Source: Gemmatimonadota bacterium (lineage in GTDB: Bacteria; Latescibacterota; UBA2968; UBA8231). From it: a DNA stretch of 50,614 nucleotides. The stretch spans positions 1 to 50,614 of the forward strand of contig PATE01000139.1 in assembly GCA_002712305.1 (NCBI GenBank). Direction: 5' to 3'. A model generated the notes under the pieces. That model was not told the DNA's origin and ran no database searches. It was given only the letters and a program-made list of their open reading frames with translations. A program made the translations under genes and the position numbers. Positions 6,067 through 22,812 of this stretch are shown here, piece after piece; the stretch's first letter is position 1, and each line of letters begins with the position of its first letter.

Positions 6067-6084
6067 GGTGCGCCTCAGCGCACC
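6067..6084. terminator. hairpin between convergent genes, possible terminator
   Basis: GGTGCGC (6067-6073) and GCGCACC (6078-6084) form a perfect 7-bp stem with a CTCA loop, straddling the convergent gene ends at 6063 and 6075. There is no T tract on either side, so intrinsic termination is uncertain. Confidence 0.4.
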
Positions 6085-9000
6085 ATCGTCATCTTGCCCG
6101 TCGCCAGATCGTCTCCCACTCGAACACGATAGAAGTAGACGCCGGTCCCGAGGGAGCGACCCAGTTCATCACGGCCATCCCACACGGCCTCATGGAAGCC
6201 GGGCAGCAATGGTTCATCGAGCAGCTGGCGAATCCTCTGTCCCAGCGCATTGAAGATATTCATCGACACCGCAACAGGCACGAAGTCACCAGTCGCGGGA
6301 ATGTCGAAGTGAATCTGGGTCGTGGGGTTGAAGGGATTCGGATAGTTGCTGCCGAGGCTGAAGGTGCGCGGTGCGGCCAGGCTGCGTGGCTCACCGACCA
6401 TTTCGATGGAGTTCGAGGAGTAGTCGGCTGCCATGAGCCGTCCCCCGGAGATTCTGAGAGAGGATGGAAAGCCGTCCTCATGCAATTCCACCCGCAGGCG
6501 AAGCAGCTCTCCAGAGCCCTCTGCGGCCCAGCCCTTGCCGAGGCGCGCCGCGGCAACACGAAGCTGATCGGTCTGTAGCTGGTGCCGGGAGAACCACCCG
6601 TCTGGATTGGCACGGAAGACCCCCCCGACATCGACATTCTCACCGTCGATGATGGTGACCTCGTAGGGATCGTAATCCACCTGTAGTTCGTAGCCGGCCA
6701 GATCACGTGCGTCCTGCACGGCGACGACGAGATCGATCAGTTCACCGGCTCGCCAGTGTGTTCCTTCACGGCCCGGGGCCTGAATCGTGACACTCGCCTC
6801 AGTCGCGGCGCTTGCAGGACGAAAGACGGGCGGTGCACCAAAGCCCGTGAGATTCGAGATGTTCGACGATGTCACGGTCAGATCCTCGACACCCACTCGG
6901 CCGTCGTTGTTGATATCGGACTCCTGAAAGCGATCCACGGCCGGATTGCTCCCCCATGCCGCATCGATAGCATTCACATCGTCTTCGTCGATTTCATTGT
7001 CTCCTGTTACATCGCCTGCGAGCAGGACCCGTCCGTCTTGATCCAGAAGGAGGGACGGATCACCTCGTAGGTCGGATGCGAACAGGCGAGCACCTGTCAG
7101 TTGGATCGTCTCACCGCCTCGAATCGTCAGTGTGTCCGTTCGCCCGCTGAGATGGCTCGAATCCTTCACGGTCAGCACGTAACGCCCTGGTGGGATCTCT
7201 TCCAGCACGAGTGATCCGGAAGCCGTGGTCTGCACTTCAACCGTATCGGCCGTACCCACGGCATCGTCGTTTGCGGTGCGGAACGATGTATCCACGATGT
7301 CCACGGTGCTGCCGGGCAGTCGCAGATGGACATCCAGAAGCGTGGCGTGATCTCCGGAACCGATGGGCGGCGCTCGACCTTCGAGGAGGACCGTCGACAG
7401 AATCCGCCCTCGCGGAACGGCCTCGATCTGTGCATTGCGTGTCGACATCCCGTTGCTTGCCTTTAGGGGGACACTGCTGCCCGAAAGACTCAGGCTCGCC
7501 TCGTCCGTGTCGTAGCGGAGCGAGTTGAGCCCCGAGAAACCGGACTTCACAACCACCGAGAAGGAGGCAAGGCGCTTGGGCTCTTCTTCAGTGCCGATGA
7601 TCTCACCGCCGAGATCCTGCTTCGTGTAGCGGATCAGTCCACCGATGGTCGTGTCCTCGATCACGGTTCCTGCAGTAAAGACCTCTCCCGCGTCCGTAAA
7701 GGGACTTGTCGGATTCACCACGTCGAACAGGCTTGAACTGATGGGGAGGATGGCACTGACCACCTCTGCCGTCAGCCCACTCGACTGCACGAGCACATCA
7801 AAGGTCAGTGTGTCTCCGACACTCGCGCGCAGGCGATTGGGACTCAGCGCCAGATTCGGTGACGTGCCCTGCGACGAGGTCACGACCAGCTCGTTCACTG
7901 ACGAACTGACCCGACCCGTCGTGTTGTCGGCGAAGGTCGCGTCAGCACTGATGCCCGCATAAAGGGTGTAGGTTCCCTGCGCGAGTGAGAAGGTGGGGGT
8001 GCGCGTGTCCCAGCGGAACGTATTACTGCTGTCCTCTCGAATGTTCTGGATCGTACCCGATGCCGTGCCGTCACTGGAGGTCACCAGCAGCACGTTGTCC
8101 GTGCCACCTGCACCAATCAGATCCGTTTCCAGCGTGTTCAGCGCGGTGTACGTGTCGATGCGGGACGCGTACAATCTGATATAGGCATCATCGTTCCCCG
8201 CGGCATCATCCACCATGTAGTCATCCCACGTGAGACGCACGATATCGCCCTGGCTGATCTGGGGCAGGCTCGACTTCATCAGGATATAGGGACTGTGGTT
8301 GATAACCAGAGAGCCACCGAGACTCACCCGCTCATTGCCATTGCCATCATCAAGCACAGCATACAACCAGACACGGACACCACTTTCTGGCATCTCATTT
8401 GGAGGATTGCGCAGGTCCCATGTATAGAAATCACCAGCCCCCTCGCCGTCTTCACTCAGTCCGTCGATGATGAGGCCCCCATCCCCGTCACCTGTCTTGA
8501 GCAGGTCCGTGCGGTCGGTGCCGCTATAGTTCTTGGTCGCCGGGTCGACGGTGGTAAAGTAGAAAGCGATCGTCGCGTCGTCATCGAGGTCGGCATCTCC
8601 TGGACCCTTCTGCCATTGCAGTGTGTAAATGGGTTGAGACCCGGAGTCGATCTCACGCTGGGTATTGCGCGAGGGTTCATAGAACGTGAACTGGGGCGAG
8701 TGACGCACCACGACACGATTCCTCGATGTCCCGACTGTGACGGAGGTCGAGTCGCTCGCCACGGCGTAGAGATAGTAGGCACCCTGAGGAATCAGCGGAG
8801 ACTTGATGTCCCAGTCGTATTCGCGATCATGGCCAGAGAGCGTGGTCGAAGATGTAATCTGCGTGCCCCGTACGCCTGACAGGCTTTTGCCGAGGACGAA
8901 TGTCTGAATCGGATACGAGCCAGACGCCGAGACAGAACTGATACCGGTGACGGCGGCGTAGAACAGCTGAACGCGGGCCTCTGAATCGTTGTCGACGACG

Positions 9001-11708
9001 GTGAAGTCCAGATCGTAGGGACTCGCCTGAAGACCCGTTCGAACGCCTGTATCAACCGTGTCCGATTGACTCGGATCGATGTGAACCACCACGGGCGAGT
9101 GAACGATCGTCACAGTGCCGGGGCTCACGGCGAAGACGGGGTCGTTGTCCCCGTCCTGGGCGACCAGATAGATGTAGTAGGAACCCGAGCGAACCTTCTC
9201 GATCGAGGCAAACAGCGATCCGGTCTGCAGGGCCGTCGGCGGATCGTCCCACGTGTAAGTCTGGTTGGTGCCCTCCGTTAGATCGTCCGTGCCACTGGCA
9301 TTCCTTGCGATCACATCGTTCTGGTCGGCGATGAGCGTCGCGAAGATCCGGATATCCTGAACGTTGCGTAGACCCGCCGATGGATACGCATAGAAGGCGG
9401 CATTGAGCGAACTCGACAGATCGTCATCGCTATCGGTGAGATCGTATCGGATGGCATAAGACATATTGACGGTGTCGCTCACACCGTCGGGATCGGCAAT
9501 TGATACGACAGGGGCGCTGTTTGCGGCGACGATGTCGATGTCAGCGCCGAGCAGGAAGTAGGCACCAGCCGCCAGAGAGACTGGTGGCGCTGTCCCCACG
9601 TGCACGCTGCGTTCAGCGGCGGAACTGCTTGTGATCAGCTGGAGATTTGTGGAGGAGTCACTGCCGAGAACGTTGAGCTTGACCAACAGTCCAACCTTGT
9701 CTCCCGCATCTCCCCATTCCCGTGAATCCCCCGCACTGTCGTCCATGAGCCCCTCGAAGCGCTTCTGTGTGTCCTGCAGGTACGTTCCAACTCGTTCCCA
9801 ACTTCCAGCCAAGAACCCGTCGCCGACGATCCCCCTTGCTCCCAGACCGGAACCGTCGGTGGGATCTGCGGCATGCACCCAGACAGGTCGATCGGCTCGC
9901 TCGCTGACGGGCGTGAGCGGATTCACCGGCGTATACGAGAGGGTGTATTCGTAGGCACCCACGGGAACCGACTCATCTTCGACGGTGATGTCGCGACCGA
10001 GAATCTTGAAGTAGGGATGGTGGTTCACATCGCTGACCGAGTTGATGCCATACCCCTCACCTGTTCCCCCGATGAAAGCGAGATAGAGGTGGTCGGCGCC
10101 GGGATGATGGGTCAGCGCAGGAGAACCGAGATACGTGTCCGTGTTGGCGATGCCGTCGTCGGTCCCTGCCCCATCACTGTCGTCATCGGCCACAACCTCT
10201 GGCAAGGTCCAGCTTGAGCCATTGTACGTGGCGTAGTAGATATCGTGTTCGTCAGCTGTCTTACCTGAGAATCCGGCACTGAAAGCGATGTGCAGATCAC
10301 CGCGCACGTCCTCTACGACATCATCCACGAAGGCGGCGACTCGCTCCGTGTGAGACCAGTTGAGTTCGGGTCCATACTTTCCGAGTCCGTCAGCGAACAG
10401 CGCGCTACTCCACACCGTGGAGGCAACACCCCAGGTCGCGCCTGCTCCGGTGGATCCGTCGTCGACGTATTGATTAAAATAGATGCCCTCCGTCGGCGTG
10501 TTGTCACCGAACTTGAAAACAGAGAACACACGGTCCGGCACAGGTTGTCGATCGACGACGATTGTGGGGAAGTAATAATTTGCGTTCACGTCGAGAGCGG
10601 CGTTGCCAGAAACCTCGTCGACGAAGGCACCAACCGTGGCGCCATCCACATTCTGATTCCAACCGGTGGCGCCGACGGTAGACCACAAATCATCCGTGGA
10701 GAGCCGCTTGTGTTCGATTCGGTTATCGGCATCGGAGAAATACACGGCGTGTAGCGCGTCGCCATCTCCGAGGGCAAGGTCGACGCCGTTGTGCCGCTTT
10801 GCATCAGCCGTAATGCGAACGCCACCGGCACTGCCCGCCGTTCCGAGGGATCCAAAGGTTTCCATCGTGAACGTCGGCGTACTGCGGTTGACCTTGGCCA
10901 GCATGATGTCCCCAGTACCAGAGGTCCCCCGCTCATAGGCGATGAAGATCTCATCCCGGTCGTCGATGATCATGCGTGGGAAGGCACTCTTGGCGCCCTC
11001 GGTTCCGACGACACTCACATCGTTGACCGCCAGCGGCGTCTTCCAGCTGTCGCCTCCGTCGCTGGAATAGCCGAAGTAGACGTTGCGATTCGCACTGTGA
11101 TCAGCCGTTGTCACAAAGGCATACGCCACACGCGGATTGCCGCCGCTGTCGACTTCCAGGTCGAGGGTTGAAAGGGAGCTGCCCGAGCCAGCTGTGCTCA
11201 GGACGAAATAGCTGCGTCCACCTGAGACACTCACGGGAGTGGTGAAGGTCGCCCCATTGTCCTCACTGCGGGCATAGAGCACTTCGTACACCGGTGTAGA
11301 CCCGCCGGTAAAGACGGTCCCTCTCGTCGCTGTGGACGCTTCTATCCAGGCCATGTGTATGGCGTTGATGGCGCTGAAGGACTGAGTTACGCCTGCCAAG
11401 GGGATGTTGGCCTGCGTGCCGAAGGGGGCGACGTCGACCATGGCGATGTCGACCCAGGACCCATCGGTGTCGGTTGAGCTGATCTGCTCGGCGCGTTCGA
11501 GGCTGTGGAAGTTCCCGATCAGGGGATACTCGTCGGTGACAGCCTGATTCAGATCAACCCGAATCTCGACAGTACTCCCGGTGATGAAATCCTGCTTTGT
11601 CGTGCTATCCTGAGAAACGAAACCGACGGGTGTCTTGTTTTCGAACGTCGGATCCGCGGCCCAACAGGTGCCGGCCAGCAGAAGAAAAAGGAGGATATTG
11701 CGACGCAT
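6075..11708 (-). CDS. giant secreted protein: propeller, Ig-like, cohesin-dockerin-cohesin, sorting domain
   Basis: This 1877-residue protein starts with a clear signal peptide (MRRNILLFLLLAGTCWA). Residues about 70-520 contain Asp-box-like sequences (ARSEDNGATF, YSSDGGDSW) suggesting a beta-propeller. Four beta-sandwich modules follow (about 590-1280), each ending in a 'G-x-Y-x-x-Y/A' strand. Next come a cohesin-like module (about 1285-1400), a regulatory-like beta sandwich (about 1430-1540), a dockerin-like Ca-binding pair (GDVTGDNEIDEDD and SDINNDGRVGVEDL, about 1563-1608), a second cohesin-like module (about 1638-1756) and a FlgD/T9SS-like C-terminal sorting domain starting GSNYPNPFNPTT (about 1781). 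It lies 6 nt after its paralogue's stop, so they form an operon. It is probably surface-exposed or exported. Ligand unknown; module assignments are by eye. Confidence 0.85.
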   Translation of the reverse strand: MRRNILLFLLLAGTCWAADPTFENKTPVGFVSQDSTTKQDFITGSTVEIRVDLNQAVTDEYPLIGNFHSLERAEQISSTDTDGSWVDIAMVDVAPFGTQANIPLAGVTQSFSAINAIHMAWIEASTATRGTVFTGGSTPVYEVLYARSEDNGATFTTPVSVSGGRSYFVLSTAGSGSSLSTLDLEVDSGGNPRVAYAFVTTADHSANRNVYFGYSSDGGDSWKTPLAVNDVSVVGTEGAKSAFPRMIIDDRDEIFIAYERGTSGTGDIMLAKVNRSTPTFTMETFGSLGTAGSAGGVRITADAKRHNGVDLALGDGDALHAVYFSDADNRIEHKRLSTDDLWSTVGATGWNQNVDGATVGAFVDEVSGNAALDVNANYYFPTIVVDRQPVPDRVFSVFKFGDNTPTEGIYFNQYVDDGSTGAGATWGVASTVWSSALFADGLGKYGPELNWSHTERVAAFVDDVVEDVRGDLHIAFSAGFSGKTADEHDIYYATYNGSSWTLPEVVADDDSDGAGTDDGIANTDTYLGSPALTHHPGADHLYLAFIGGTGEGYGINSVSDVNHHPYFKILGRDITVEDESVPVGAYEYTLSYTPVNPLTPVSERADRPVWVHAADPTDGSGLGARGIVGDGFLAGSWERVGTYLQDTQKRFEGLMDDSAGDSREWGDAGDKVGLLVKLNVLGSDSSTNLQLITSSSAAERSVHVGTAPPVSLAAGAYFLLGADIDIVAANSAPVVSIADPDGVSDTVNMSYAIRYDLTDSDDDLSSSLNAAFYAYPSAGLRNVQDIRIFATLIADQNDVIARNASGTDDLTEGTNQTYTWDDPPTALQTGSLFASIEKVRSGSYYIYLVAQDGDNDPVFAVSPGTVTIVHSPVVVHIDPSQSDTVDTGVRTGLQASPYDLDFTVVDNDSEARVQLFYAAVTGISSVSASGSYPIQTFVLGKSLSGVRGTQITSSTTLSGHDREYDWDIKSPLIPQGAYYLYAVASDSTSVTVGTSRNRVVVRHSPQFTFYEPSRNTQREIDSGSQPIYTLQWQKGPGDADLDDDATIAFYFTTVDPATKNYSGTDRTDLLKTGDGDGGLIIDGLSEDGEGAGDFYTWDLRNPPNEMPESGVRVWLYAVLDDGNGNERVSLGGSLVINHSPYILMKSSLPQISQGDIVRLTWDDYMVDDAAGNDDAYIRLYASRIDTYTALNTLETDLIGAGGTDNVLLVTSSDGTASGTIQNIREDSSNTFRWDTRTPTFSLAQGTYTLYAGISADATFADNTTGRVSSSVNELVVTSSQGTSPNLALSPNRLRASVGDTLTFDVLVQSSGLTAEVVSAILPISSSLFDVVNPTSPFTDAGEVFTAGTVIEDTTIGGLIRYTKQDLGGEIIGTEEEPKRLASFSVVVKSGFSGLNSLRYDTDEASLSLSGSSVPLKASNGMSTRNAQIEAVPRGRILSTVLLEGRAPPIGSGDHATLLDVHLRLPGSTVDIVDTSFRTANDDAVGTADTVEVQTTASGSLVLEEIPPGRYVLTVKDSSHLSGRTDTLTIRGGETIQLTGARLFASDLRGDPSLLLDQDGRVLLAGDVTGDNEIDEDDVNAIDAAWGSNPAVDRFQESDINNDGRVGVEDLTVTSSNISNLTGFGAPPVFRPASAATEASVTIQAPGREGTHWRAGELIDLVVAVQDARDLAGYELQVDYDPYEVTIIDGENVDVGGVFRANPDGWFSRHQLQTDQLRVAAARLGKGWAAEGSGELLRLRVELHEDGFPSSLRISGGRLMAADYSSNSIEMVGEPRSLAAPRTFSLGSNYPNPFNPTTQIHFDIPATGDFVPVAVSMNIFNALGQRIRQLLDEPLLPGFHEAVWDGRDELGRSLGTGVYFYRVRVGDDLATGKMTMVR

Positions 11709-11714
11709 GGCGAC

Positions 11715-14700
11715 CTACTTCAACAGACTCATCTTGCGCGTCTGTCGCATGGTCTCGGTCTCGAGCAGCGAGAAGTAGAGGCCTGCCGCGGCGTAATGCC
11801 CACCGTCATCTCGACCATTCCACACCAGCGTGTGAAAACCTGCGTCCATCGGTCCGGAGATCAGCGTTCGGACTCGCTGACCGAGGACATTGTAGATCTC
11901 GAGTCTCACCATCTGGTGACGGTCGAGAGCGAAGGGCAGTGTCGTGGTAGGGTTAAATGGATTCGGATAGTTGGGTCGCAGCATCGTTTGCTGCGGCAAC
12001 AGCAACTGTGAGAGCGCACTCTTCCAGGAGACCTCCTCTGGACGGTATCCTGGGTCGAGCAACAGACCGCTGCCCAGTTCAAGACCATCTGCAAGTTGAG
12101 GGCTATCCTGCTGCACCTCGAACCAGAGGCGTGCCAGGTGGCCATCCCCGCTGGCGGCCCAATCCTTGCCAACTCGGGAACCCATGACGCGCAGTCGTTC
12201 CCCGTCCAACCGGGTCTGAAGCACACTGCCGTGCGGGTTGGGGGCAAAGATGTCGCCTCGTTGTGTCCGGTCAGCCAGAGGTCTCAGGCGGGTGTCGTCA
12301 TACGCGAGATCGAACTCGAAGCCCGCCAACTGTCCCAGATCGAGGGCATGTACTTCAACCCCAAGCAGATCCCCTGTACGATAGGCTCCGTTCGGTGGGC
12401 CACCGACGACTCGTATGTCGAGTTGCGCCCGCTCGTTGCTGGGGCTTGCCAGCGTTTTGTACACGGGCGGCGCACCAAAACCCTCGCTGTTGCCGAAATT
12501 CGAGGTGGTCACCGTCAGGTCGGACGCACCGACGATGTCGTCGTTGTTGATATCCGCCTGATGGAAGCTCGGCAGCGCCTTATTCGTACCCCAGGCTGCG
12601 ATGATGAGATTCACATCATCTTCGTTGATCTCATTGTCTTCGCTCACGTCTCCGGCGATCATCTGCGATCCGGTAGAAGGCAGGATCGAGGTTGGATCGC
12701 CACGCAGATCAGACCCGAAGAAACCGAGCACTTCCAGGGCAGCGGAAATGGAGTTGACCACATCGATGGTCTCGCCGTTGCGGATGACGATCGTATCGGT
12801 GCGGCCACTGATGTGACTCGTGTCCTTCACCGTCAACACGTAGCGCCCGGCTGGTACGCTGACCAGCGTCAGTTCCCCCGCCGCATTGGTGGCCACCTCG
12901 ACCGTATCGGTCGTGCTCAGGTTCGCATCGTTGGCGGCGATGAAAATTGCGTCGTCGATGTCGATCGTGCTGCCTGGGGCGCGTAGATGAATATCCAGAA
13001 GCGTCGAGTGGTTCCCTGACCCGAGGGGGGCAGTATGGCCTTCCAGTTTGACAGTGGCCGTGATCGAACCACGAGGCTGCCTCTTCAGATCAGCGTCTGT
13101 AAGACTGAGTCCATCGTTGAAATCCAAGGGCTGGCTTTGACCCACCAGACCAAACACAGTGCCTGCGTCGCTCCTCGAGAATGCGACGGCAGGTGATCCG
13201 GTCAGCGTCGTGCGAGCGATGAGTTGCACCCGTGCCAGAGCCGTCGGCTCGGTCGTAGACCCTACGAGTTGCCCCGTGAACGACGATTTCGTGAATCGCA
13301 GTTGGTTGCCCACGACCTGATTCTCGATGGGTGTCGCTCCCGTGAAGACGTTGTCGAGATCGACGAAGGGCACCACACCTGGATTGCCTTGATCAATGAC
13401 GGTGAAGTCACTGCTGTTCAGGTCGATGACGATCTGCACAAGATTCAGATTGCTCGGATGCTGAATCATGACATCGAGGGTCAGCGTATCACCGATGGCG
13501 ACGGTCGCGTCTGTCGGACTCAGACCCACATTCGGCGTCGTCGCCGTACCGCCGATGGTCAGTGCTGATGACGAACCATCGAAGGTGGTCGCCGCGTTAT
13601 TGCTGAAAGTGCTGTCGGGGCTGATCGCCGCATAGATCAGATATGTACCCGCGGGCCCAAACAAACGAGTGTTCCAGTCAAAGAAATTGTTGTCCGATTC
13701 TCGCACCTCCACATGGCCCGCAAGGGTTCCGTTCGTGCTGTTCACGAGGAAGGTCTGTGCGTTGGCGACATCGTTTTCCAGGGCGCCCACGGTGGCGTGG
13801 AAGCCAGCGGCCCGTGTCGTGGCATAGAGACGCACATAGGCATCATCAGTGCTGGATCCGTCGTCGACGAGATAGTCATCCCAACGAATGCGCAGCACGT
13901 CGTTCTTCTGGAAATCCGAGTTCAGATCATTGAGATCTGAGGTCAGGAGCGTGACACTCGGGTCGTGCGTAACGGTGATCGAGCCACCGAGTATGGCATT
14001 CTCGTTTCCTCGATCATCGCTGATGATCGCGTAGATCCAGACCTGACGATCGCTCCGTGGCACGTCGTTCGGTGGCGTGCGGAAGTCCCACACATACATA
14101 TCACCTGCGCCGGTGTCGTCATCCTCTTTGATACCGGAGTCGATGAGTCGCGTATCGGCGTCTGCACGCAGGGAGTCGGGATATCCTTCGTAGTTGACGG
14201 AGACGGGGCTGTCGGTGGTGAAGTAGAAATCGATCGTGGCATTGTCATCGAAGTCCTGGTCACCGGGGCCCTTTTGCCACTGCAGGGTGTAGACCGGTTG
14301 TGACCTGGAGTTCAGAGACCGATGCGTGTCTTTGGGTGGCTCGTAGAACGTCAGTGTCGGGGAGTGTTTGACGACGAGTTGACCGTCCCCCTGACCGATG
14401 GTGACAAAACCGCCATCGCTTGCCACAGCATAGAGATAGAACTGGCCCTCGGGGACGATACTGGAGTCGGGATCGACAAAGATCGAGTCGGTTACATCCC
14501 AGGAGAACTCGACGTCCGCGCTGGTGAGCGTATCTGACTTCTCAATAAATGTTGCCCGCGTACCCCTGAGACTCTTGCCCACCACGAAGGACTGGTTCGG
14601 ATAGGTCCCGCTTGCCGAGACCGACGTCAGTCCGCTGATGGCGGAATAGAAGAGCGCGACCTGGTTGCTGCCTTGATTGTCGAAGTCACGGACGAAGAAG

Positions 14701-17438
14701 TCGAGGTCGTATGGATTCGCCTTTGCCCCTGTGCGCACGCCTGTGTCGACGGTATCGATACCAATAGGATCGACGAACTCGACGATCGGTTTGTGTCGAA
14801 TCGTCAGCGCGCCGGGGCTGACAGCAAAGGCGGGCGGGTTCTTTCCGTCGTCGGCGACCAGATAGATGAAGTAATTGCCATCGGGGACCTGCTTCATCGA
14901 TGCGAAGAGTAGATTCTTCAGCGCATTCGGTGGGTCATCCCACGTGTAGGACCCCGTTTTGCCTTCGAGAAAGTCACCGGTACCCGACGCATTGAAAGCA
15001 GGGTCATCGTTCTCGTTGGCAATGAGCGTGCCGAAGATGCGGATATCCTGCACCGTGTTCAGCCCGCCACTGTCGGCGAAGTAGAGGGCCGCCGCCAGTC
15101 CTGCTGAGAAATCGTCGTCTACATCTGTGAGTTCATAGCGGATCGTGTACGACGTGTTGGCAGAGTCGAGACTGCCATCGGGCTGAGAGATGGATACCGT
15201 AGGTACGCGATTGGCATCGATGATGTCGATCTTTGCGCCAAGCAGAAAGAAATCTCCGATGGCCAGTGACACAGGCGGAGCCGTAGCGACGCGGACCGTG
15301 CGTGCCCCATGCCCGGTACCTGCATCTGAAGCTGTTGACGCCGTGATCAGCTGAAGATTCGTCGACGAATCGGAACCAAGCACATTGAGCTTGACGAGCA
15401 GGCCGATCTTGTCGTTGTCGTCTCCCCACTCGTGATCGGAGGTGGCATCTTCGTTCACAAGGCCCTCGAAGAACTTGTCGTTGTCCCGCAGGCTCGTTCC
15501 GACTCTTTCCCAGTCACCGGCGAGAAAACCATCTCTCTGCCGGCCTTTAGCGCCGAGCCCGGAGCCATCAGAGTTATCCGCGACGTGGACGTAGACGGCA
15601 TTGTCCTCGATGTCCGTCGTGGCGTCGTGAGCAAGAATGGGCGTGTACGTCAGATCGTATTGGTAAGCGCCTACAGGAACGGACTGATCCTCTGAGGTGA
15701 CGCTGCGTCCGAGAACCTTGAAATAGGGATGCTGGTTGGCGTCGAAACTGTGGTCGACGCCGTAGCTCTCGGCGGCTCCCGCCACGAAGGCCATGTAGAC
15801 GTTGTCGTCTCCCGTGCGCTTGGCGAGAATGGGCGACTGAAGGAAGACGTCCGTTGCGGCGATTCCATCGATGGTACCCGCATCGTCGTCTGCGACGCGT
15901 TCGGGCAAGGTCCATGTATTGCCGTTGAAGTATCCATAGTAGATGTCCTGCTCACCGGCGGCGGCGGCGGCCGTGTTCGAGTAGCCGGCGCTGAAGGCGA
16001 TGTGCACTTCTCCCAGGTCGGTACGCCGGTCGTCGAGAACGGCCGAAACCCGATCTACAAGTTCCCAGTCGAGCTCGATGTTTGTCTGCAGATTTCCACT
16101 CTGAAACAGTGGTGTTGCCGCCGTGCTCCAGACCGGGGTTGCCTGCGCAAGAATCCAGCCACCACTGCCGCCCTTGGCATGATCGTAGTCGTAGGAGTTG
16201 TAGGCCACCGTCTCGAAATGGGCGTCGCCGTACTTGCAGAAGGCGTAAATCCGATCCGGCGTGGAGATGGTGTCCACGAGTGCCGTAGGAAACAGGTAGG
16301 TCGCATTCACATTGAGTGATGCGTTCGCAGCAGCCGACGGGTTGAACAGACCTACTGCGGCACCAGCGACATTCTGGTCCCAGCCAAAAGCGGATACGTC
16401 GTTCCAATCGTCAGCCAGCAGCGTCTTGTGCTGAATCTGACTTGAAGCGGGTACGACATTGTCGTCGAAGTACAGAACGTGGAGCACATCCCCCGTCCCG
16501 ACGGCCAGGTCGGGGCCGGTTTGCCGTCCCGTATCGGTCGTCAGACGGACACCGCCGGTTGATCCGGCCGTTCCGAGGCTGCCGATGGACTCCATCGTGA
16601 ATGGACTCGTACCGCGATCGACCCGGGCGAGCATGATGTCGTCGCGGGGAGTAGCGACGCCGCGGACGTAGCTGATATAGATATTGTCGCGCTCGTCGAT
16701 CGCCATCTGTGGAAATGCCACAGACCGTCCCTCTGTATTCCCCACCGTCAGGGTGTCATTTACGAGGAGGGCCTGATCGGAGGGCAGCCAGCTGGCGCCA
16801 CCATTCTGTGAGTAGTTGAGGTAGACGTTGTCGGGCCGTTTGTTGAACTCCACCGTCCGACCGTCGGGCGATGAATCAAAGGCATATACGACTCGCGGGT
16901 TGCCGCGACTATCGATCTCAAGGTCCAGGGTCGAGAACGAGGTACTCCCCCCGCCGGCTGTGATCAGATCGAATCGGAGGGATCCACTAATGCTGACGGG
17001 AGTACTGAAACTGAGGCCATTGTCATTGCTGCGAGCATAGTTGACGAAGTAGACGGGGGTGGAAACGGTTCCCTCAACGACGGAATGGATCCACGCCATG
17101 TGCACGATTCCGCCATCACCGACGGCCATATCGGCCCGCAGGCCATCGATGTCCTCGGTGCTGACCGCTGTGGCTCGCTCGAGATTGTGGAAGTGTCCAA
17201 TGACGGGATAGGTCGGCGTTGCGGCCTGATTGAGATCGACGCGAACGGTGACCTCAGTGCCCTCGACAAAATCTGTGTTCGATGTGGAATCGGTGGCCGA
17301 GAATCCCGTAGGCGTCCGATTCTCGAAGATGGGCTGCGCAGCTTCGGCCAGGCCGAGACCCGTCAGAGAGACGCACACACTGAGCCAGGCCGCACCGCGT
17401 CTGACGCGGCGGCGTAGCCGTCGTTCGGTTCCTGTCAT
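11715..17438 (-). CDS. giant secreted paralogue with cohesin-dockerin-cohesin core
   Basis: The 1907-residue product matches its downstream neighbour along its whole length, for example FENRTPTGF, GLLVKLNVLGSDSSTNLQL and YTLQWQKGPGD. The order is signal peptide with arginine-rich n-region, beta-propeller with Asp-box-like repeats, Ig-like modules, cohesin-like module, beta-sandwich, dockerin-like pair (AGDVSEDNEINEDD, ADINNDDIVGASDL), second cohesin-like module and an NYPNPFNPTT sorting domain ending in KMSLLK. ATG 17438 matches the paralogue's start. An in-frame ATG at 17507 has a much better GGGAGG site 11 bases upstream and would add 23 residues before the signal peptide. A 10-bp palindrome (17443-17463) lies just upstream of ATG 17438. 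It is divergent from the gene at 17972. Likely a cell-surface or exported scaffold; function unproven. Confidence 0.85.
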   Translation of the reverse strand: MTGTERRLRRRVRRGAAWLSVCVSLTGLGLAEAAQPIFENRTPTGFSATDSTSNTDFVEGTEVTVRVDLNQAATPTYPVIGHFHNLERATAVSTEDIDGLRADMAVGDGGIVHMAWIHSVVEGTVSTPVYFVNYARSNDNGLSFSTPVSISGSLRFDLITAGGGSTSFSTLDLEIDSRGNPRVVYAFDSSPDGRTVEFNKRPDNVYLNYSQNGGASWLPSDQALLVNDTLTVGNTEGRSVAFPQMAIDERDNIYISYVRGVATPRDDIMLARVDRGTSPFTMESIGSLGTAGSTGGVRLTTDTGRQTGPDLAVGTGDVLHVLYFDDNVVPASSQIQHKTLLADDWNDVSAFGWDQNVAGAAVGLFNPSAAANASLNVNATYLFPTALVDTISTPDRIYAFCKYGDAHFETVAYNSYDYDHAKGGSGGWILAQATPVWSTAATPLFQSGNLQTNIELDWELVDRVSAVLDDRRTDLGEVHIAFSAGYSNTAAAAAGEQDIYYGYFNGNTWTLPERVADDDAGTIDGIAATDVFLQSPILAKRTGDDNVYMAFVAGAAESYGVDHSFDANQHPYFKVLGRSVTSEDQSVPVGAYQYDLTYTPILAHDATTDIEDNAVYVHVADNSDGSGLGAKGRQRDGFLAGDWERVGTSLRDNDKFFEGLVNEDATSDHEWGDDNDKIGLLVKLNVLGSDSSTNLQLITASTASDAGTGHGARTVRVATAPPVSLAIGDFFLLGAKIDIIDANRVPTVSISQPDGSLDSANTSYTIRYELTDVDDDFSAGLAAALYFADSGGLNTVQDIRIFGTLIANENDDPAFNASGTGDFLEGKTGSYTWDDPPNALKNLLFASMKQVPDGNYFIYLVADDGKNPPAFAVSPGALTIRHKPIVEFVDPIGIDTVDTGVRTGAKANPYDLDFFVRDFDNQGSNQVALFYSAISGLTSVSASGTYPNQSFVVGKSLRGTRATFIEKSDTLTSADVEFSWDVTDSIFVDPDSSIVPEGQFYLYAVASDGGFVTIGQGDGQLVVKHSPTLTFYEPPKDTHRSLNSRSQPVYTLQWQKGPGDQDFDDNATIDFYFTTDSPVSVNYEGYPDSLRADADTRLIDSGIKEDDDTGAGDMYVWDFRTPPNDVPRSDRQVWIYAIISDDRGNENAILGGSITVTHDPSVTLLTSDLNDLNSDFQKNDVLRIRWDDYLVDDGSSTDDAYVRLYATTRAAGFHATVGALENDVANAQTFLVNSTNGTLAGHVEVRESDNNFFDWNTRLFGPAGTYLIYAAISPDSTFSNNAATTFDGSSSALTIGGTATTPNVGLSPTDATVAIGDTLTLDVMIQHPSNLNLVQIVIDLNSSDFTVIDQGNPGVVPFVDLDNVFTGATPIENQVVGNQLRFTKSSFTGQLVGSTTEPTALARVQLIARTTLTGSPAVAFSRSDAGTVFGLVGQSQPLDFNDGLSLTDADLKRQPRGSITATVKLEGHTAPLGSGNHSTLLDIHLRAPGSTIDIDDAIFIAANDANLSTTDTVEVATNAAGELTLVSVPAGRYVLTVKDTSHISGRTDTIVIRNGETIDVVNSISAALEVLGFFGSDLRGDPTSILPSTGSQMIAGDVSEDNEINEDDVNLIIAAWGTNKALPSFHQADINNDDIVGASDLTVTTSNFGNSEGFGAPPVYKTLASPSNERAQLDIRVVGGPPNGAYRTGDLLGVEVHALDLGQLAGFEFDLAYDDTRLRPLADRTQRGDIFAPNPHGSVLQTRLDGERLRVMGSRVGKDWAASGDGHLARLWFEVQQDSPQLADGLELGSGLLLDPGYRPEEVSWKSALSQLLLPQQTMLRPNYPNPFNPTTTLPFALDRHQMVRLEIYNVLGQRVRTLISGPMDAGFHTLVWNGRDDGGHYAAAGLYFSLLETETMRQTRKMSLLK

Positions 17439-17971
17439 CACGGCCGACACGAGTCGTGTCGGCTGGCTGCAATCGCTCTGAGGGTTCACTGTCGCCCTCC
17501 ACTCCATCGGAAGGTGAACCTCCCTTTCGGGAGGTCGCCGTCTGTTCGAGGACGAAAGGCCTTCGATCCAGCGGCGGTGCCCCGCATCCCGCGGGGCGGC
17601 TCTGAGTGCGACGGGCGCTAACGCCCGTTCGGGAGAGGTCCCGCCTGGAACCCGGTTTCCCGCACCGCCTTCAGCAAGGCCAATGCCAGACCCGATTCTC
17701 TCTGAGAATACTCGCGTTCTGGACGCTCTGGCCCCGTGGAGGGGAAAGGATTTCCCCCTGAGTGAGAGATTTTCCTTCCCAGCGGGTGGATGGAGGTTCC
17801 TGCCAACGAGTGCTCCCACGACATGGTTGGGTGGCACGTCCTTTGCCCCGCCTCGGGTGGGAAGCCCCCAAGACAGGGATGCTTCTCTTCGCGGGAACCA
17901 GAGCGGACCCTCCAGGAAGGAAGGTCCAGGACCGGGGAGCATTCCCCGGCTCGAACCGGAGTCAATGGACT
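17439..17971. promoter_or_regulatory. 533-nt divergent spacer packed with GC-rich hairpins
   Basis: This spacer holds both promoters of the divergent surface-protein genes and an unusual density of stems. Toward the minus gene: palindrome 17443-17463 (10-bp arms, 1-nt centre), CCTCCC/GGGAGG with a GAAA tetraloop (17519-17534), GCCCCGC/GCGGGGC (17579-17597), and ACGGGCG/CGCCCGT (17611-17628). Toward the plus gene: GGGGAAA/TTTCCCC (17741-17757), GTGC...GCAC (17810-17837) and CCGGGGA/TCCCCGG (17931-17948). The GGGAGG arm is also the candidate ribosome site for ATG 17507, so the hairpin could hide it. I recognise no known riboswitch consensus. Both strands stay open here, probably only because of base composition. 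Confidence 0.5.
17443..17463. repeat. 10-bp perfect palindrome beside a start codon
   Basis: GCCGACACGA and TCGTGTCGGC flank a single G. The element lies 4 nt upstream of the candidate start codon ATG 17438 and could be an operator or an mRNA hairpin affecting initiation. If the gene starts at 17507 it falls inside the coding region instead. Confidence 0.6.
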
Positions 17972-20900
17972 ATGGCACGATACTCTATGCGGCCAGCAGG
18001 TCTGGCTGCCTTGCTGATCTTTCTCGGCCTCCTCACTGAGCCCTTAATGGCGGCGCAGCTACAACTGCGACACGCCTCGGCAGGTGTCAGTCAAACCACG
18101 ATTCTCGTTGGCGACATGATCGACGTGGAGGTGTGGGTCGACTCTGAGGGGGATGAGATCTCCGGCGCTGCCATCTTCCTCACCTTCGACGAAGATGTCT
18201 TCGAGATCGTCGATGAGGACAAGGAGCCGGCCGTCGCGGGGTTTCAGCCCTTTGCCCAAGGCGGGTTCCTGGCCAATGGCGAAGTCTTCCGAAATGTGCG
18301 ACTCGAGGCCGATGATCCCGCCGCCTCTCCCCTGGGAGAGCAGATGGACTACAGTGTCGTTCGTGCATCGGACTCGGGTACGGGGCGTGTCGCCTCGTTT
18401 TCCCTTCGGGCAAAAGCACCTTCCGCGACAACCAACATCCAGATCGACGAGACCGGACTCCGAGAGACACGGGTATTCCTACCCGATGGCTCGAGTGATG
18501 CCTTTCGCTTTATCACCCCCTTGAGCGTCGTGGTTCGCGGCATCGGAATCGAAGGCCTGCCCCAGGAATTGGTGTTGGCCCGTGGCCAGATCGATACGAC
18601 GACGTTCCGGCTCGCCGATGCCCTCTTTGATCCTCTGTACGGCCCTTCCGAGATCAGCTGGGAGGTCTCCGACAGCCGCAGTCTCGGCCTAGAGATCGAT
18701 CCACTGACCTCACTTCTTACCGTGCGTGCCCCCGACGACACCTCCCCATGGGAGCGGGTCACCATTACGGCAGTCAATCCCGATGGCCAGACGTCCTCTT
18801 TTGAGGTCGACATCTTCGTGAATGCCGCACCCGATCTGACACCACCCGAGCCGTTAATCACGGTCGAGGACGTTACATATGAGCTGGATCTGACGGCATA
18901 TCTAATAGATCCGGACACCCCGGCATCTCGGCTCTCGTGGGAAATCGACGCGCCGTCCACGGTCGATGTGGAGATCACAGGACCTCCCTGGCGGGCAACG
19001 ATGACGCCCCTTCAGGATTGGCACGGCACGGCCCTGATCGGCCTGACCGTCTTTGACCAGTATCAGTTCAGTGATGACGCCGAAGTGGAGTTGTCCGTCA
19101 CGTCCATCAACGACGCCCCTACGGCGCTTTTGTCACCCAACCTTCAACTGACCCGGGGCAAGCAGGACTCGACCCTTCAGATCGCCAGCATCTTCAGCGA
19201 TGCTGAACAGGATGCGGAGTTTCTGTCTCTGACCTGGCAGGGCGCCGAGCGAATCCAACTCGAGCAGCGTGGGGATCTGCTGATCGTGACAGCCCCGAAT
19301 TCGCCCTGGTTGGGCAGTGAACAGATTCAGCTTCAGGTGCGGGACGCCGATGGTGAAGCGGCGACCAGTCTCCTCACGGTGACGGTCGTCGCTTCCCTGG
19401 CGCCCGAGTTCCTGAATCCACCGGCCCGCCTCGGTTTGGCTGCCGGCCAGCAGACTGTGATAGACCTTGCCGATTTCTCATCCGATCCGGACGATCCTCT
19501 CGAAACGCTGAGCTGGAGCGTGCAGACGGAGACGGGCAGCGAGTTGCTCGTGCAGATGAGCCTTTCCGGCGCTGCACTGATCACCGCACCCGATGACTTC
19601 GAGGGGATCCAGACCGTCCGCTTCCTGGTGACGGACCCCAGTGGGGAGCAGTCGAGTTTCGATCTGCTCGTGTTCGGTGCACCTGCCGGGGGCGATCCCC
19701 TGTTGGTCCCCTTCCCAGCGATTGAGATTCCTGCGGGCGGTGTGGATGCTTCCGTCGACCTCGATCAGTTTGTGCTGGATCTCGATCACACCCCGGAGCA
19801 GATGAGCTGGCGTGCCACGGGTGCGCCCGGGATCGACGTACGCGTCGATGCGACCTCTCATGTCTTGTCCATCAGTGCATCGGAAACTATCTCCGGTGAG
19901 TTCCAGATTGGTCTCGAGGTCACCGATCCGTCGGGTCTGTCGACGACGGGAGTTCTGGAGCTGACCGTGTTGGGCGCACCGGGGACCGACGAACCGGACA
20001 CACCCGATCCACCCGTGGATCCCGTAGATCCCACGATTCAGCTCGCGTCTTTGCCCACGCTGACCGTCACCTCAGGTGCCTTTGATCAGAGTCTCGAACT
20101 GGCAGACTACCTTCAAGGGGCGGCTGTGGATGACCTGACCTGGGAGTTCACAGGCGGCCAGCACACGCAGGCCTATGTCGATGCGGCCACCGGTCGTGTG
20201 GTTGTGCTGGCCGATGCGGACGCGACAGGCGCTGAGATTCTCTCGATCCGCGGACTGGACGCCTTCGGCAACGTGCTGGTCGAGGGATTGATCGGCGTGC
20301 AGATCATGGTCGCGCTGCCCAGCCTGGAGCTGGTGGAACTGACCGAAACCATCGCCCTCGTCGGCGACAGTCTTGTGTCGTTGTCTTCTTCCGAGCTTCT
20401 CTCGTCGACGACCTTCGACCCTTCTTCCCTGCAGTGGACAGCCAGTGCTGCCATCGGGGTGGAACTGACCGTCGAAGCCGGTGAGCTGTTCGTCGGAGGC
20501 GATCTGCTCGACGTGACGGGAACGCATCTGATCACCTTACAGGCGAGCGCCCTTGATGGAAGCGTCGCCGAGACGCGCCTTCTGGTGCAGGTCTTGCCCG
20601 ATGACGGCAGTGCAGGTGTTGAGAAGGAGGGATTTCACCTGGCCATCGTGCCGAACCCCATCCAGCCTGACTATCTGCATCTCTATTTGATCGACAGTCT
20701 TGCCGCGTTCACTGCTCCACGAATGCGCACCAAGATCGACGACTGGGCGGATATCGCCATCAACGACCTTGGCAACGGAATCTGGCTCGGGTCTCAGGTC
20801 CTGTCCCCCGGCGTCGAGGGCACCATCGAATACCTCGCCCTCGCCGTGGAGGATCGTACTCTCTACAAGGACAGTCGCAGCATCCACGTGGGCACGGCTC

Positions 20901-21748
20901 AGGAAAGCTCGGGACGGGTCGTGGCCGGTGGTGGCGCGCAGCTCCATCTGGTGGCCGGCAGCTTCGATACGGAAACCGTCGTCGTGATCATGCCTGAGGC
21001 CGTGACGGCAACGACAGAATTGACACCCGTCAGTGCGGCGTTTGAACTGCACGCCACTGGCCCACTGCGCAAGAGCGCCGTACTGGAACTGACATCATCA
21101 GGACTTCGTGGCGATCTCTATCGGTGGGATACGGGTGCCGATACGTGGCGATTCATGGGTGGCCAGCGCCATTCGGACTCCGTCACCGAGCGGATCGAGC
21201 AACTCGGACGTTTCGCCCTGTTTGCCGACCGCGTCTCTCCTTCCATCGAGACGGAGCAGGACGTACGGCGCCTGCGGCTGACCGATGGTGGAAGCGGCAT
21301 CGATCGGATTGCCCTGTCGAGTGGCGGTGCCCCCATTGCAACCCCCATCGACTATGATGGTCAGTGGTTGACCCTATCGCAGGATCTGGCGGGATCGGTG
21401 ACGCTTCGTGTGACCGATCAAGCCGGCAATGTCGCCGAGCGGACCGTCCAATTGGGCGGGCAGCTTCCGGGTGACTTCGTCCTGGATCAGAACTATCCCA
21501 ACCCCTTCAATCCGGAAACATCGATTCCCTTGTCGCTCTCGCGCGCAGGACATGTGCGCGTGGAGATCATCGATGCCCTGGGTCAGCAGATTCAGGTGTT
21601 GATGGAAGGCGAGTTGTCCGCGGGCCGGCACGTGTTACAGTGGCATGGCCGCGACGCGGTGGGACACCGTGTGGCGTCGGGAATCTATCTGTATCGTGCG
21701 ATCACGGATGAGGGCATCAAGACACGACGCATGACCCTTCTGCGCTGA
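17972..21748 (+). CDS. secreted multi-domain adhesin-like protein with N-terminal cohesin-like and C-terminal sorting domain
   Basis: This 1258-residue protein begins with a signal peptide (hydrophobic core AGLAALLIFLGLL, cleavage near MAA-Q). An N-terminal cohesin-like module (about residues 30-180; VGDMIDVEVWVDSEGDEISG, then FDEDVFEIVDED) is followed by about six cadherin/Ig-like repeats that recur as 'D-x-D...LSW' followed by a 'F/L-x-V-x-D-x-x-G' strand. A short acidic proline linker (DEPDTPDPPVDPVDP) lies near residue 675. The C-terminus is a FlgD/T9SS-like sorting domain with NYPNPFNPET and SGIYLYRAI. ATG 17972 gives the best signal peptide; GGAG lies 12 nt upstream. It has no dockerin, unlike the two divergent neighbours, so it could offer a cohesin partner to them. 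A strong terminator follows. Confidence 0.85.
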   Translation: MARYSMRPAGLAALLIFLGLLTEPLMAAQLQLRHASAGVSQTTILVGDMIDVEVWVDSEGDEISGAAIFLTFDEDVFEIVDEDKEPAVAGFQPFAQGGFLANGEVFRNVRLEADDPAASPLGEQMDYSVVRASDSGTGRVASFSLRAKAPSATTNIQIDETGLRETRVFLPDGSSDAFRFITPLSVVVRGIGIEGLPQELVLARGQIDTTTFRLADALFDPLYGPSEISWEVSDSRSLGLEIDPLTSLLTVRAPDDTSPWERVTITAVNPDGQTSSFEVDIFVNAAPDLTPPEPLITVEDVTYELDLTAYLIDPDTPASRLSWEIDAPSTVDVEITGPPWRATMTPLQDWHGTALIGLTVFDQYQFSDDAEVELSVTSINDAPTALLSPNLQLTRGKQDSTLQIASIFSDAEQDAEFLSLTWQGAERIQLEQRGDLLIVTAPNSPWLGSEQIQLQVRDADGEAATSLLTVTVVASLAPEFLNPPARLGLAAGQQTVIDLADFSSDPDDPLETLSWSVQTETGSELLVQMSLSGAALITAPDDFEGIQTVRFLVTDPSGEQSSFDLLVFGAPAGGDPLLVPFPAIEIPAGGVDASVDLDQFVLDLDHTPEQMSWRATGAPGIDVRVDATSHVLSISASETISGEFQIGLEVTDPSGLSTTGVLELTVLGAPGTDEPDTPDPPVDPVDPTIQLASLPTLTVTSGAFDQSLELADYLQGAAVDDLTWEFTGGQHTQAYVDAATGRVVVLADADATGAEILSIRGLDAFGNVLVEGLIGVQIMVALPSLELVELTETIALVGDSLVSLSSSELLSSTTFDPSSLQWTASAAIGVELTVEAGELFVGGDLLDVTGTHLITLQASALDGSVAETRLLVQVLPDDGSAGVEKEGFHLAIVPNPIQPDYLHLYLIDSLAAFTAPRMRTKIDDWADIAINDLGNGIWLGSQVLSPGVEGTIEYLALAVEDRTLYKDSRSIHVGTAQESSGRVVAGGGAQLHLVAGSFDTETVVVIMPEAVTATTELTPVSAAFELHATGPLRKSAVLELTSSGLRGDLYRWDTGADTWRFMGGQRHSDSVTERIEQLGRFALFADRVSPSIETEQDVRRLRLTDGGSGIDRIALSSGGAPIATPIDYDGQWLTLSQDLAGSVTLRVTDQAGNVAERTVQLGGQLPGDFVLDQNYPNPFNPETSIPLSLSRAGHVRVEIIDALGQQIQVLMEGELSAGRHVLQWHGRDAVGHRVASGIYLYRAITDEGIKTRRMTLLR

Positions 21749-21833: not shown

Positions 21834-22751
21834 TCAGTCGCTGGTCTGCTGATAGGCATCGATGAGGGCTCGAATTCGCGGATCGGCGTCGACACCGCGA
21901 CCGGGATGAATGATCAAGCGGAACTGACTCACGGCGATGTCACCCGCCTTGATCGTCCAACTGCCGTCGACGCTCTCATCCTTCTTGAAATCGTGGAGAC
22001 CGAAGGGATTGGCCGTAAACAGACCATAACCGCGCACGTGCCAGTGCGTGGGATGCCACGGATTGTCCTTGTGGTCCACCACCGTATGCCCCCACTCGGT
22101 GCCATCTGGAAGGGGACCCGAATAATCGACCCACGCCGCCGGCACACCCCAGGTCGTCTCCTCGCCTTCCCCATTCTCGAACACAGCACCCTCGGAGTTT
22201 TCGATCCGTCCCTTGTCCTTGGCATCCATCGAGGTCGGCACTCGGATCGCGAACATGCCGCCCTCCTTGGTATCGCCAAAGGTCACGTCGCCGTGAACGG
22301 CATGGAGCTCACTGCGCTGGTCAAGAATGCGGAGATCGCCATCGGCGATCACGTGAAAGCTGCGTCGCTCCTCGAGAATCGGCTGACCAGACGGACCATA
22401 CCAGTCGACGATGCCATCGATCTGTGCCGTTTCGCCCGCCATCCCGACCACCGGCTCACCACGCTGCAGCATAGAGCCGTGACCGAGGCCTTTCACATTC
22501 TCGTCCCACAGATTGAAGCCATTCACCTCACCATGCGCCGTATAGATGCTGCGGTGGTGATAGTGGTCCTGGTTCTCTCCGTCGATTTCGGCGAAGGGAT
22601 AGTGCCGCGTCAGGCCCGTGCCTGACGGTGTCTGCACCGGATAAAAGCAAGGGCGGCAGACGTAGTGGCCATAGCGATACTCCGTGAACAACTTGCCATC
22701 GACGGTGATCACCGCCTTGTGCTGGTCACGATGCAGCTGGATATCAATCAA
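21834..22751 (-). CDS. PmoA-like / DUF6807 family protein
   Basis: The 305-residue product resembles the family labelled 'methane oxygenase PmoA' (now DUF6807), found widely in Planctomycetes and related glycan degraders and not a true methane monooxygenase subunit. Visible family traits are the VCRPCFYPVQTPSGTGLTRHYP segment near residue 35, GENQDHYHHRSIY and later TEWGHTVVDHKDNPWHPTHWHVRGYG, a histidine-rich beta-sandwich fold. TTG 22751 is chosen because AGGAGG lies six to seven bases upstream, inside what would otherwise be coding if ATG 22772 were used. No signal peptide. It likely binds or acts on a sugar-derived compound; activity is unknown. The upstream maturase gene is co-directional with a 61-nt gap. 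Confidence 0.75.
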   Translation of the reverse strand: MIDIQLHRDQHKAVITVDGKLFTEYRYGHYVCRPCFYPVQTPSGTGLTRHYPFAEIDGENQDHYHHRSIYTAHGEVNGFNLWDENVKGLGHGSMLQRGEPVVGMAGETAQIDGIVDWYGPSGQPILEERRSFHVIADGDLRILDQRSELHAVHGDVTFGDTKEGGMFAIRVPTSMDAKDKGRIENSEGAVFENGEGEETTWGVPAAWVDYSGPLPDGTEWGHTVVDHKDNPWHPTHWHVRGYGLFTANPFGLHDFKKDESVDGSWTIKAGDIAVSQFRLIIHPGRGVDADPRIRALIDAYQQTSD

Positions 22752-22812
22752 GGTGTTCCTCCTCTTCCGCATTCCCCACTCACGGGTCTGAGATTGGTCA
22801 TGTGTGTCTTCC

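Follow-up and report, generated by a model that had tools for sequence, protein, structure and literature searches.

A putative T9SS-exported surface assembly of giant cohesin-dockerin proteins and a cohesin-tipped partner in Latescibacterota

Results

Two giants with cohesins and a dockerin in one chain

A 50,614-nucleotide stretch of a genome of the phylum Latescibacterota (contig PATE01000139.1 of assembly GCA_002712305.1, deposited as Gemmatimonadota bacterium; hereafter the window) encodes a trio of large putative surface proteins, A, B, and C. The giants A and B carry, in this order, a cohesin (Coh1), an X-module, a dockerin (Doc), and a second cohesin (Coh2) within one chain, and C carries a cohesin at its N terminus; all three end in a predicted sorting domain of the type IX secretion system (T9SS). 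The reading that we favor, with a confidence slightly short of even, is that they are exported by the T9SS and assemble at the surface in a calcium-dependent manner: the X-Doc of each giant would couple with the C protein of its own locus, the couples being insulated from one another.

The giants are encoded in tandem on the minus strand, and C is divergent, on the plus strand. A (6075 to 11708) has 1877 residues comprising a signal peptide, a BNR-like propeller, immunoglobulin (Ig)-like repeats, the Coh1-X-Doc-Coh2 block, and the T9SS C-terminal domain. B has the same architecture and is approximately 47 to 51% identical to A; its open reading frame (ORF) runs from 11715 to 17942 (2075 residues), with the ATG at 17438 as the likely true start, which gives a protein of about 1907 residues (11715 to 17438). 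C (17972 to 21748, 1258 residues) lies in an ORF that spans 17762 to 21748, and its signal peptide begins at the ATG at 17972. Its N-terminal cohesin is followed by Ig/cadherin-like repeats and a T9SS C-terminal domain, and profile scans of the protein detected no dockerin. The domain order of the three proteins was read with profiles built from their orthologues.

Cohesin folds of the three module types

In A, Coh1 occupies residues 1283 to 1430 (7419 to 7862, minus strand) and Coh2 residues 1635 to 1775 (6384 to 6806, minus strand). The corresponding modules of B were located with profiles at 13080 to 13538 and 12009 to 12437 on the same strand, and the cohesin of C covers residues 28 to 190 counted from ATG 17972 (18053 to 18541, plus strand). 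Searched against PDB sequences, the Coh2 profile matched type II cohesins (E = 2.3e-7), the Coh1 profile a Ruminococcus flavefaciens cohesin (5m2o; E = 0.005), and the profile of the C module a type II cohesin (5g5d_A; E = 0.028), the latter two matches being weak if taken alone. At E values up to 0.1, the Pfam cohesin family was recognized in 14 of the 29 Coh-X-Doc-Coh members (best, 2.7e-13) and in 5 of the 17 C members (best, 3.2e-6). The window's own modules score under the PF00963 gathering cut-off of 24.1 bits (23.2 for Coh2 of A and 16.3 for C), and other members of both alignments score well past it.

As the sequence matches of Coh1 and C were weak, cohesin identity was settled by the folds. 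An AlphaFold2 model of residues 1283 to 1780 of A, computed from the 29-sequence alignment, has a predicted local distance difference test score (pLDDT) of 82, and its best Foldseek match is the Coh-X-Doc segment of the scaffoldin CipA (3kcp_A; E = 3.4e-14). With VIA-align, Coh1 matched 4uyq_A with a Z score of 15.4 (2.4 Å over 134 residues) and Coh2 matched solved cohesins with Z scores of about 12 (2.7 Å over 138 residues). The model of the C module (pLDDT 92) gave 2xdh of Archaeoglobus fulgidus as its top Foldseek match (E = 3.2e-7) and 2vo8 as its top VIA-align match (Z = 15.2; root mean square deviation [rmsd], 2.1 over 127 residues), and the 50 VIA-align entries listed were cohesins throughout. 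The models thus confirm the predicted cohesin jelly-roll fold for Coh1, Coh2, and the C module. A preliminary description of the window from its sequence had called these modules cohesin-like only, and structure prediction of the regions from A and C returned cohesin folds (Z of about 12 to 15.4).

A type II-like X-Doc pair

The dockerin of A spans residues 1550 to 1625 (6834 to 7061, minus strand), with the calcium loops DVTGDNEIDEDD and DINNDGRVGVED, and that of B, placed by alignment and profiles, lies at 12471 to 12698 (minus strand), with the loops DVSEDNEINEDD and DINNDDIVGASD. The Doc profile matched the type II X-Doc of CipA in the PDB (2b59_B; E = 8e-9). In 27 of 27 sequences, each loop has Asp at its positions 1 and 12, and the second loop has it at position 5 as well; Asp occupies position 5 of the first loop in 26 of 27, so that the calcium positions noticed earlier in A and B proved to be near-invariant. 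As whole proteins, A and B score 16.6 and 14.1 bits against PF00404, both under the gathering cut-off of 22.9, and the giant of a second, paralogous locus in the same genome (locus 2, see below) exceeds it with 39.3 bits. Loop positions 10 and 11 vary by paralogue, being ED/VE in A, ED/AA in B, and IA/SL in locus 2; by analogy with clostridial dockerins, we take these positions of each loop to be the likely recognition positions.

The X-module between Coh1 and Doc lies at residues 1432 to 1548 in A (7065 to 7415, minus strand; PF13620, E = 4.8e-5 on the isolated region) and was delimited in B with an orthologue-built profile (12702 to 13076, minus strand). A CarboxypepD_reg domain (PF13620) was found at this place in 27 of the 29 members. 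The fold of the X-module of type II X-Doc pairs has itself been likened to domain II of avian carboxypeptidase D (PMC5141474). Across Coh-X-Doc, 3kcp_A and the model of A align over 277 residues with an rmsd of 7.4; the match therefore supports the order of the modules rather than the arrangement of the domains. The module order first proposed was accurate for the cohesins and the dockerin but had overlooked the X-module.

Probable export by the type IX secretion system

The sorting domains lie at residues 1785 to 1877 of A (type A, FlgD_ig; 6078 to 6356, minus strand; TIGR04183 and PF13860), at 11718 to 11981 in B (minus strand; TIGR04183), and at 21482 to 21745 in C (plus strand; TIGR04183). 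Against the TIGR04183 cut-off of 23 bits, A, B, and C score 24.2, 25.0, and 30.4, respectively, so that all pass. The genome also encodes SprA (SprA_N, E = 1.5e-38) and two full PorU sortases over the cut-off. Because sorting domains and SprA/PorU occur together in this genome, A, B, and C are probably exported by the T9SS to the outer surface. The succession of cohesin, dockerin, cohesin, and T9SS-like sorting domain that the preliminary description gave for A and B is borne out by the profiles, the AlphaFold2 folds, and TIGR04183, and its view of C as an N-terminal cohesin without a dockerin by the structural matches and the profiles.

Some relatives of C differ at the C-terminal end. Among the shortened C orthologues (L034 to L038 and L042; six genomes, two genera, g4 and g7), several stop at a point matching residues 965 to 971 of the window's C. 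In L036, an orphan tail ORF of 188 residues (16390 to 16953, plus strand) lies directly downstream of the shortened C and resembles an intermediate. Stand-alone C-type cohesins of 205 to 225 residues with a signal peptide occur in L117 (3676 to 4350 and 12319 to 12933, minus strand) and L118 (3992 to 4624, minus strand). In these, the T9SS domain is replaced by a TWGxxK- or SWAxxK-like tail, which may represent another anchoring signal. No giant was present in the stretches read around them, and they are reminiscent of autonomous cohesins.

Gene pairing of giants and C-type cohesins across the phylum

The co-occurrence of the trio in related genomes, suggested earlier as a check, was found: eight other genomes of the family keep the trio, and more genomes have partial copies. 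Among 64 genomes sampled from the phylum, the giant block was accompanied by a C-type cohesin in 20 and never occurred alone, 3 genomes had C only, and 41 had neither. For the closest family, the counts were 13 with both, 0 with the giant only, 1 with C only, and 11 with neither (Fisher P = 3e-6, for genomes that are not independent), and presence and absence of the pair alternate inside genera g5 and g7. No genome had the full Coh1-X-Doc block without a C-type cohesin.

The two genes are linked as well. Of 63 giant blocks, 49 share a contig with a C-type cohesin gene, mostly nearby and usually as neighbors; many of the other giants sit close to the end of a contig or on a short one. Two giants with an inverted C, as in the window, make up locus 1, and in locus 2 a single giant is followed directly by C downstream; contig C143 of this genome carries a third paralogous locus. 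In non-inverted loci, C usually starts within 1.4 kb downstream of the giant. The giant and C pair recurs in families f1, f2, f3, and f6, with the giant-then-C order common to f3 and f6. Trees of the giant C terminus and of the C cohesin are congruent across the three paralogous loci (r = 0.97), and the true giant-C pairing ranks first among 576 within-genome swaps. These relationships indicate that the giant and C pair was duplicated and inherited as a unit, for which linkage alone would suffice.

Coh2 comes after Doc in nearly all giants examined. Giants of families f3 and f4 (L107, L109, and L116) have two successive Doc-Coh units per chain, those of L107 and L109 being tandem pairs. In L104, L105, L106, and L111 of the same families, tandem Doc-Coh2 giants are followed by a T9SS-tailed protein of 505 to 722 residues in which no cohesin was found and whose gene may be the partner gene there. 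A contig scan with a single pattern returned records of the family itself and, outside the phylum, only short dockerin matches, and a single pattern cannot establish absence elsewhere.

Other regions of the giants and neighboring genes

The propeller-like region of A, with BNR/Asp-box features, covers residues 20 to 580 (9969 to 11651, minus strand; weak Pfam BNR_4, E = 4e-7 on a fragment), and its Ig-like repeats cover residues 700 to 1282 (7863 to 9611, minus strand); sequence searches gave no PDB match for either region. Orthologue-built profiles placed the equivalent regions of B at 15681 to 17333 and 13539 to 15302 (minus strand). With regard to the catalytic propeller of a glycoside hydrolase family 33 (GH33) sialidase, the propeller-like region showed only weak BNR_4/BNR_2 matches and two Asp-box motifs.

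On one side, the trio is flanked by a sulfatase gene (3487 to 4989, plus strand) and on the other by genes for a DUF6807 protein (21834 to 22772, minus strand) and an anSME-like radical-SAM/SPASM/SEC-C protein (22813 to 24147, minus strand). A DUF6807 gene also adjoins C in L033 and L039, and the radical-SAM gene is kept in L039. Frame breaks in a C-type cohesin gene (L045, 8080 to 8604/8442 to 10001) and in a B gene (L039, 5443 to 9159/9027 to 11207) may be assembly errors or genuine.

Discussion

We propose that A and B stand on stalks at the outer surface, with the BNR-like propeller at the free end and the Coh1-X-Doc-Coh2 block near the membrane-proximal end. The module order of this block is that of the Coh-X-Doc end of CipA plus one extra cohesin. 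C would be a stalk showing its cohesin at the free N terminus. The calcium-bound X-Doc of each giant would dock intermolecularly onto a cognate cohesin, most likely the tip of C, with Coh2 of a neighboring giant as a further or alternative partner. Through such docking, the giants would become cross-linked and form a propeller-displaying coat or lattice, and the leftover cohesins, Coh1 and Coh2, may take further dockerins. Self-polymerization or decoration of the neighbor would be consistent with the anatomy of the proteins and the strong gene linkage. The fuller picture, a self-assembling, calcium-clamped lattice or fiber of T9SS-exported giants with a dedicated cohesin-tipped stalk per locus, nonenzymatic, phylum-conserved, and triplicated with locus-specific pairing, is possible but on balance doubtful.

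Coupling between X-Doc and C accords with the X-module that precedes Doc, an arrangement shared with type II X-Doc pairs, the best matches being 2b59_B by sequence and 3kcp_A by fold. It also agrees with the domain identities, the co-occurrence and linkage of the giant and C genes, the congruent trees, and the presence of SprA and PorU. The paralogue-specific loop positions, together with the presence of one C per locus, favor insulated couples. Several observations weigh against it. Physical linkage alone yields congruent trees and co-occurrence, and because it explains the tree congruence equally well, we do not take the latter as proof of binding. The Doc-Coh2 unit is also wider than C, its block being matched at 1e-10 in 43 of the 64 genomes and C in 23. 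Doc-Coh2 giants are thus present in many genomes without C, which argues that not every dockerin of the family needs C. Lastly, the C proteins in the loci of G004, G007, G008, G011, G013, and G017 (966 to 1144 residues) have lost the T9SS tail; C is therefore not a T9SS-anchored receptor everywhere, which any model must explain.

The wider spread of Doc-Coh2 and the recurrence of tandem giants without C give weight to a homotypic assembly, in which Doc of one giant would bind Coh2 of another (A-B or A-A), building head-to-tail chains or a lattice with C as an accessory cap or anchor. Coh2 is the module nearest to type II cohesins and Doc is nearest to type II X-Doc; moreover, the Doc-Coh2 unit is present twice in some giants, and in families f3 and f4 giants again occur as tandem pairs for which no C-type cohesin was detected. 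However, the cohesins and the dockerin of one cellulosomal scaffoldin normally differ in specificity, as described for CipA (PMC5141474), and the constant company of a C-type cohesin with the full Coh1-X-Doc block also speaks against this arrangement. We regard it as a real but minority possibility; its weight is not much below that of X-Doc-C coupling, with which it is compatible. The adjacency and co-conservation of Doc and Coh2 might alternatively reflect a clasp within one chain, stabilizing or calcium-triggered, close to the sorting domain and without intermolecular assembly. The Doc-Coh2 linker was modeled with very low confidence (pLDDT of about 35 at 339 to 352) and no sign of packing, and a clasp would leave the co-inherited C cohesin unexplained, making this improbable.

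A true cellulosome-like complex, whose cohesins would recruit dockerin-bearing hydrolases, is suggested by the co-presence of cohesins and dockerins, by the sulfatase and anSME-like genes beside the trio, and by the precedent of a T9SS-tailed scaffoldin with dockerin enzymes in Cloacimonadota (PMC8542988). Yet every dockerin found in this genome sits in giants of the A/B kind and none on an enzyme; Pfam detected no carbohydrate-binding module (CBM) in A, B, or C, and each giant has only two cohesins. The missing dockerin enzymes make a cellulosome less likely, and it was rejected as very improbable on the strength of dockerin searches of the genome (about 91% complete), which matched giants only. 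It is harder still to credit that the cohesin and dockerin calls over-read generic Ig-like and EF-hand modules devoid of a binding role. The slightly subthreshold single-sequence Pfam scores of the window's cohesins and dockerins are what such over-reading would produce, but the family profiles match PDB cohesins and dockerins at significant E values, the fold matches to cohesins stand well clear of the background, and the calcium positions hardly vary. An artefact or generic Ig calls were rejected on this profile and fold evidence.

Few known protein-protein bonds are as strong as those of cohesin-dockerin pairs, and to our knowledge, almost all that is understood of them comes from enzyme complexes. 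Here, a gene pair is co-inherited in a little-known phylum, with T9SS-secreted giants, several paralogous loci that differ in recognition residues, and no dockerin enzymes detected. If the pairs bind, they would represent a natural set of orthogonal cohesin-dockerin couples that build a Gram-negative cell surface. They would then be of use to protein engineering, and the modules are small enough to allow direct testing in recombinant form. A search of one literature library yielded no description of cohesin or dockerin proteins from this phylum; the system thus appears undescribed there, as had been surmised.

The cohesin of A. fulgidus (2xdh), the top Foldseek match of the C module, is noncellulosomal, as is the system proposed here. 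In this archaeon, neighboring genes specify a chain bearing both modules and another bearing just a cohesin; these small archaeal proteins are not known to involve a T9SS or giant stalks. Cohesin and dockerin proteins of A. fulgidus were reportedly described by Bayer in 1999 and Voronov-Goldman in 2011. The cohesins of NagJ and of a GH33 sialidase from Clostridium perfringens (2vo8 and 2jh2), the former being the top VIA-align match of C, are likewise noncellulosomal and secreted, but they are borne on Gram-positive enzymes, and A and B give no indication of sialidase activity.

The preliminary description had contrasted the presence of both partners on one chain with cellulosomes; this was mistaken. 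CipA (ScaA) of Clostridium thermocellum combines nine type I cohesins and a type II X-dockerin in one chain (PMC5141474), and in anaerobic methanotrophic (ANME) archaea a single protein can bear one dockerin together with as many as five cohesins (PMC9012536). The giants share the Coh-X-Doc order with the C terminus of CipA (CohI9-X-DocII; PDB 3kcp, 4fl4, and 2b59). They differ by a second cohesin after Doc, the N-terminal propeller and Ig repeats, the T9SS tail, and the fact that no dockerin enzymes were found in their genome. The ANME proteins resemble the giants in having both partners per chain, in a noncellulolytic organism and with a proposed surface role; they are archaeal, and the passage describing them reports no X-module, T9SS, or paired stalk gene, unlike the trio (PMC9012536). 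A scaffoldin of "Candidatus Stygibacter" (Cloacimonadota) resembles the trio in that a surface protein with a T9SS C-terminal domain, a conserved one, bears the cohesins. It has multiple cohesins and CBMs (PMC8542988), with dockerin-bearing hydrolases and peptidases as partners, whereas here giants are paired with a one-cohesin stalk. Both partners on one chain (CipA and ANME) and a T9SS-tailed cohesin scaffoldin (Cloacimonadota) were therefore already known. The new elements are the Coh-X-Doc-Coh giants, a cohesin-tipped partner dedicated to them, their joint inheritance across the phylum, and the finding of no dockerin enzymes, and we place the trio with the noncellulosomal cohesin-dockerin systems.

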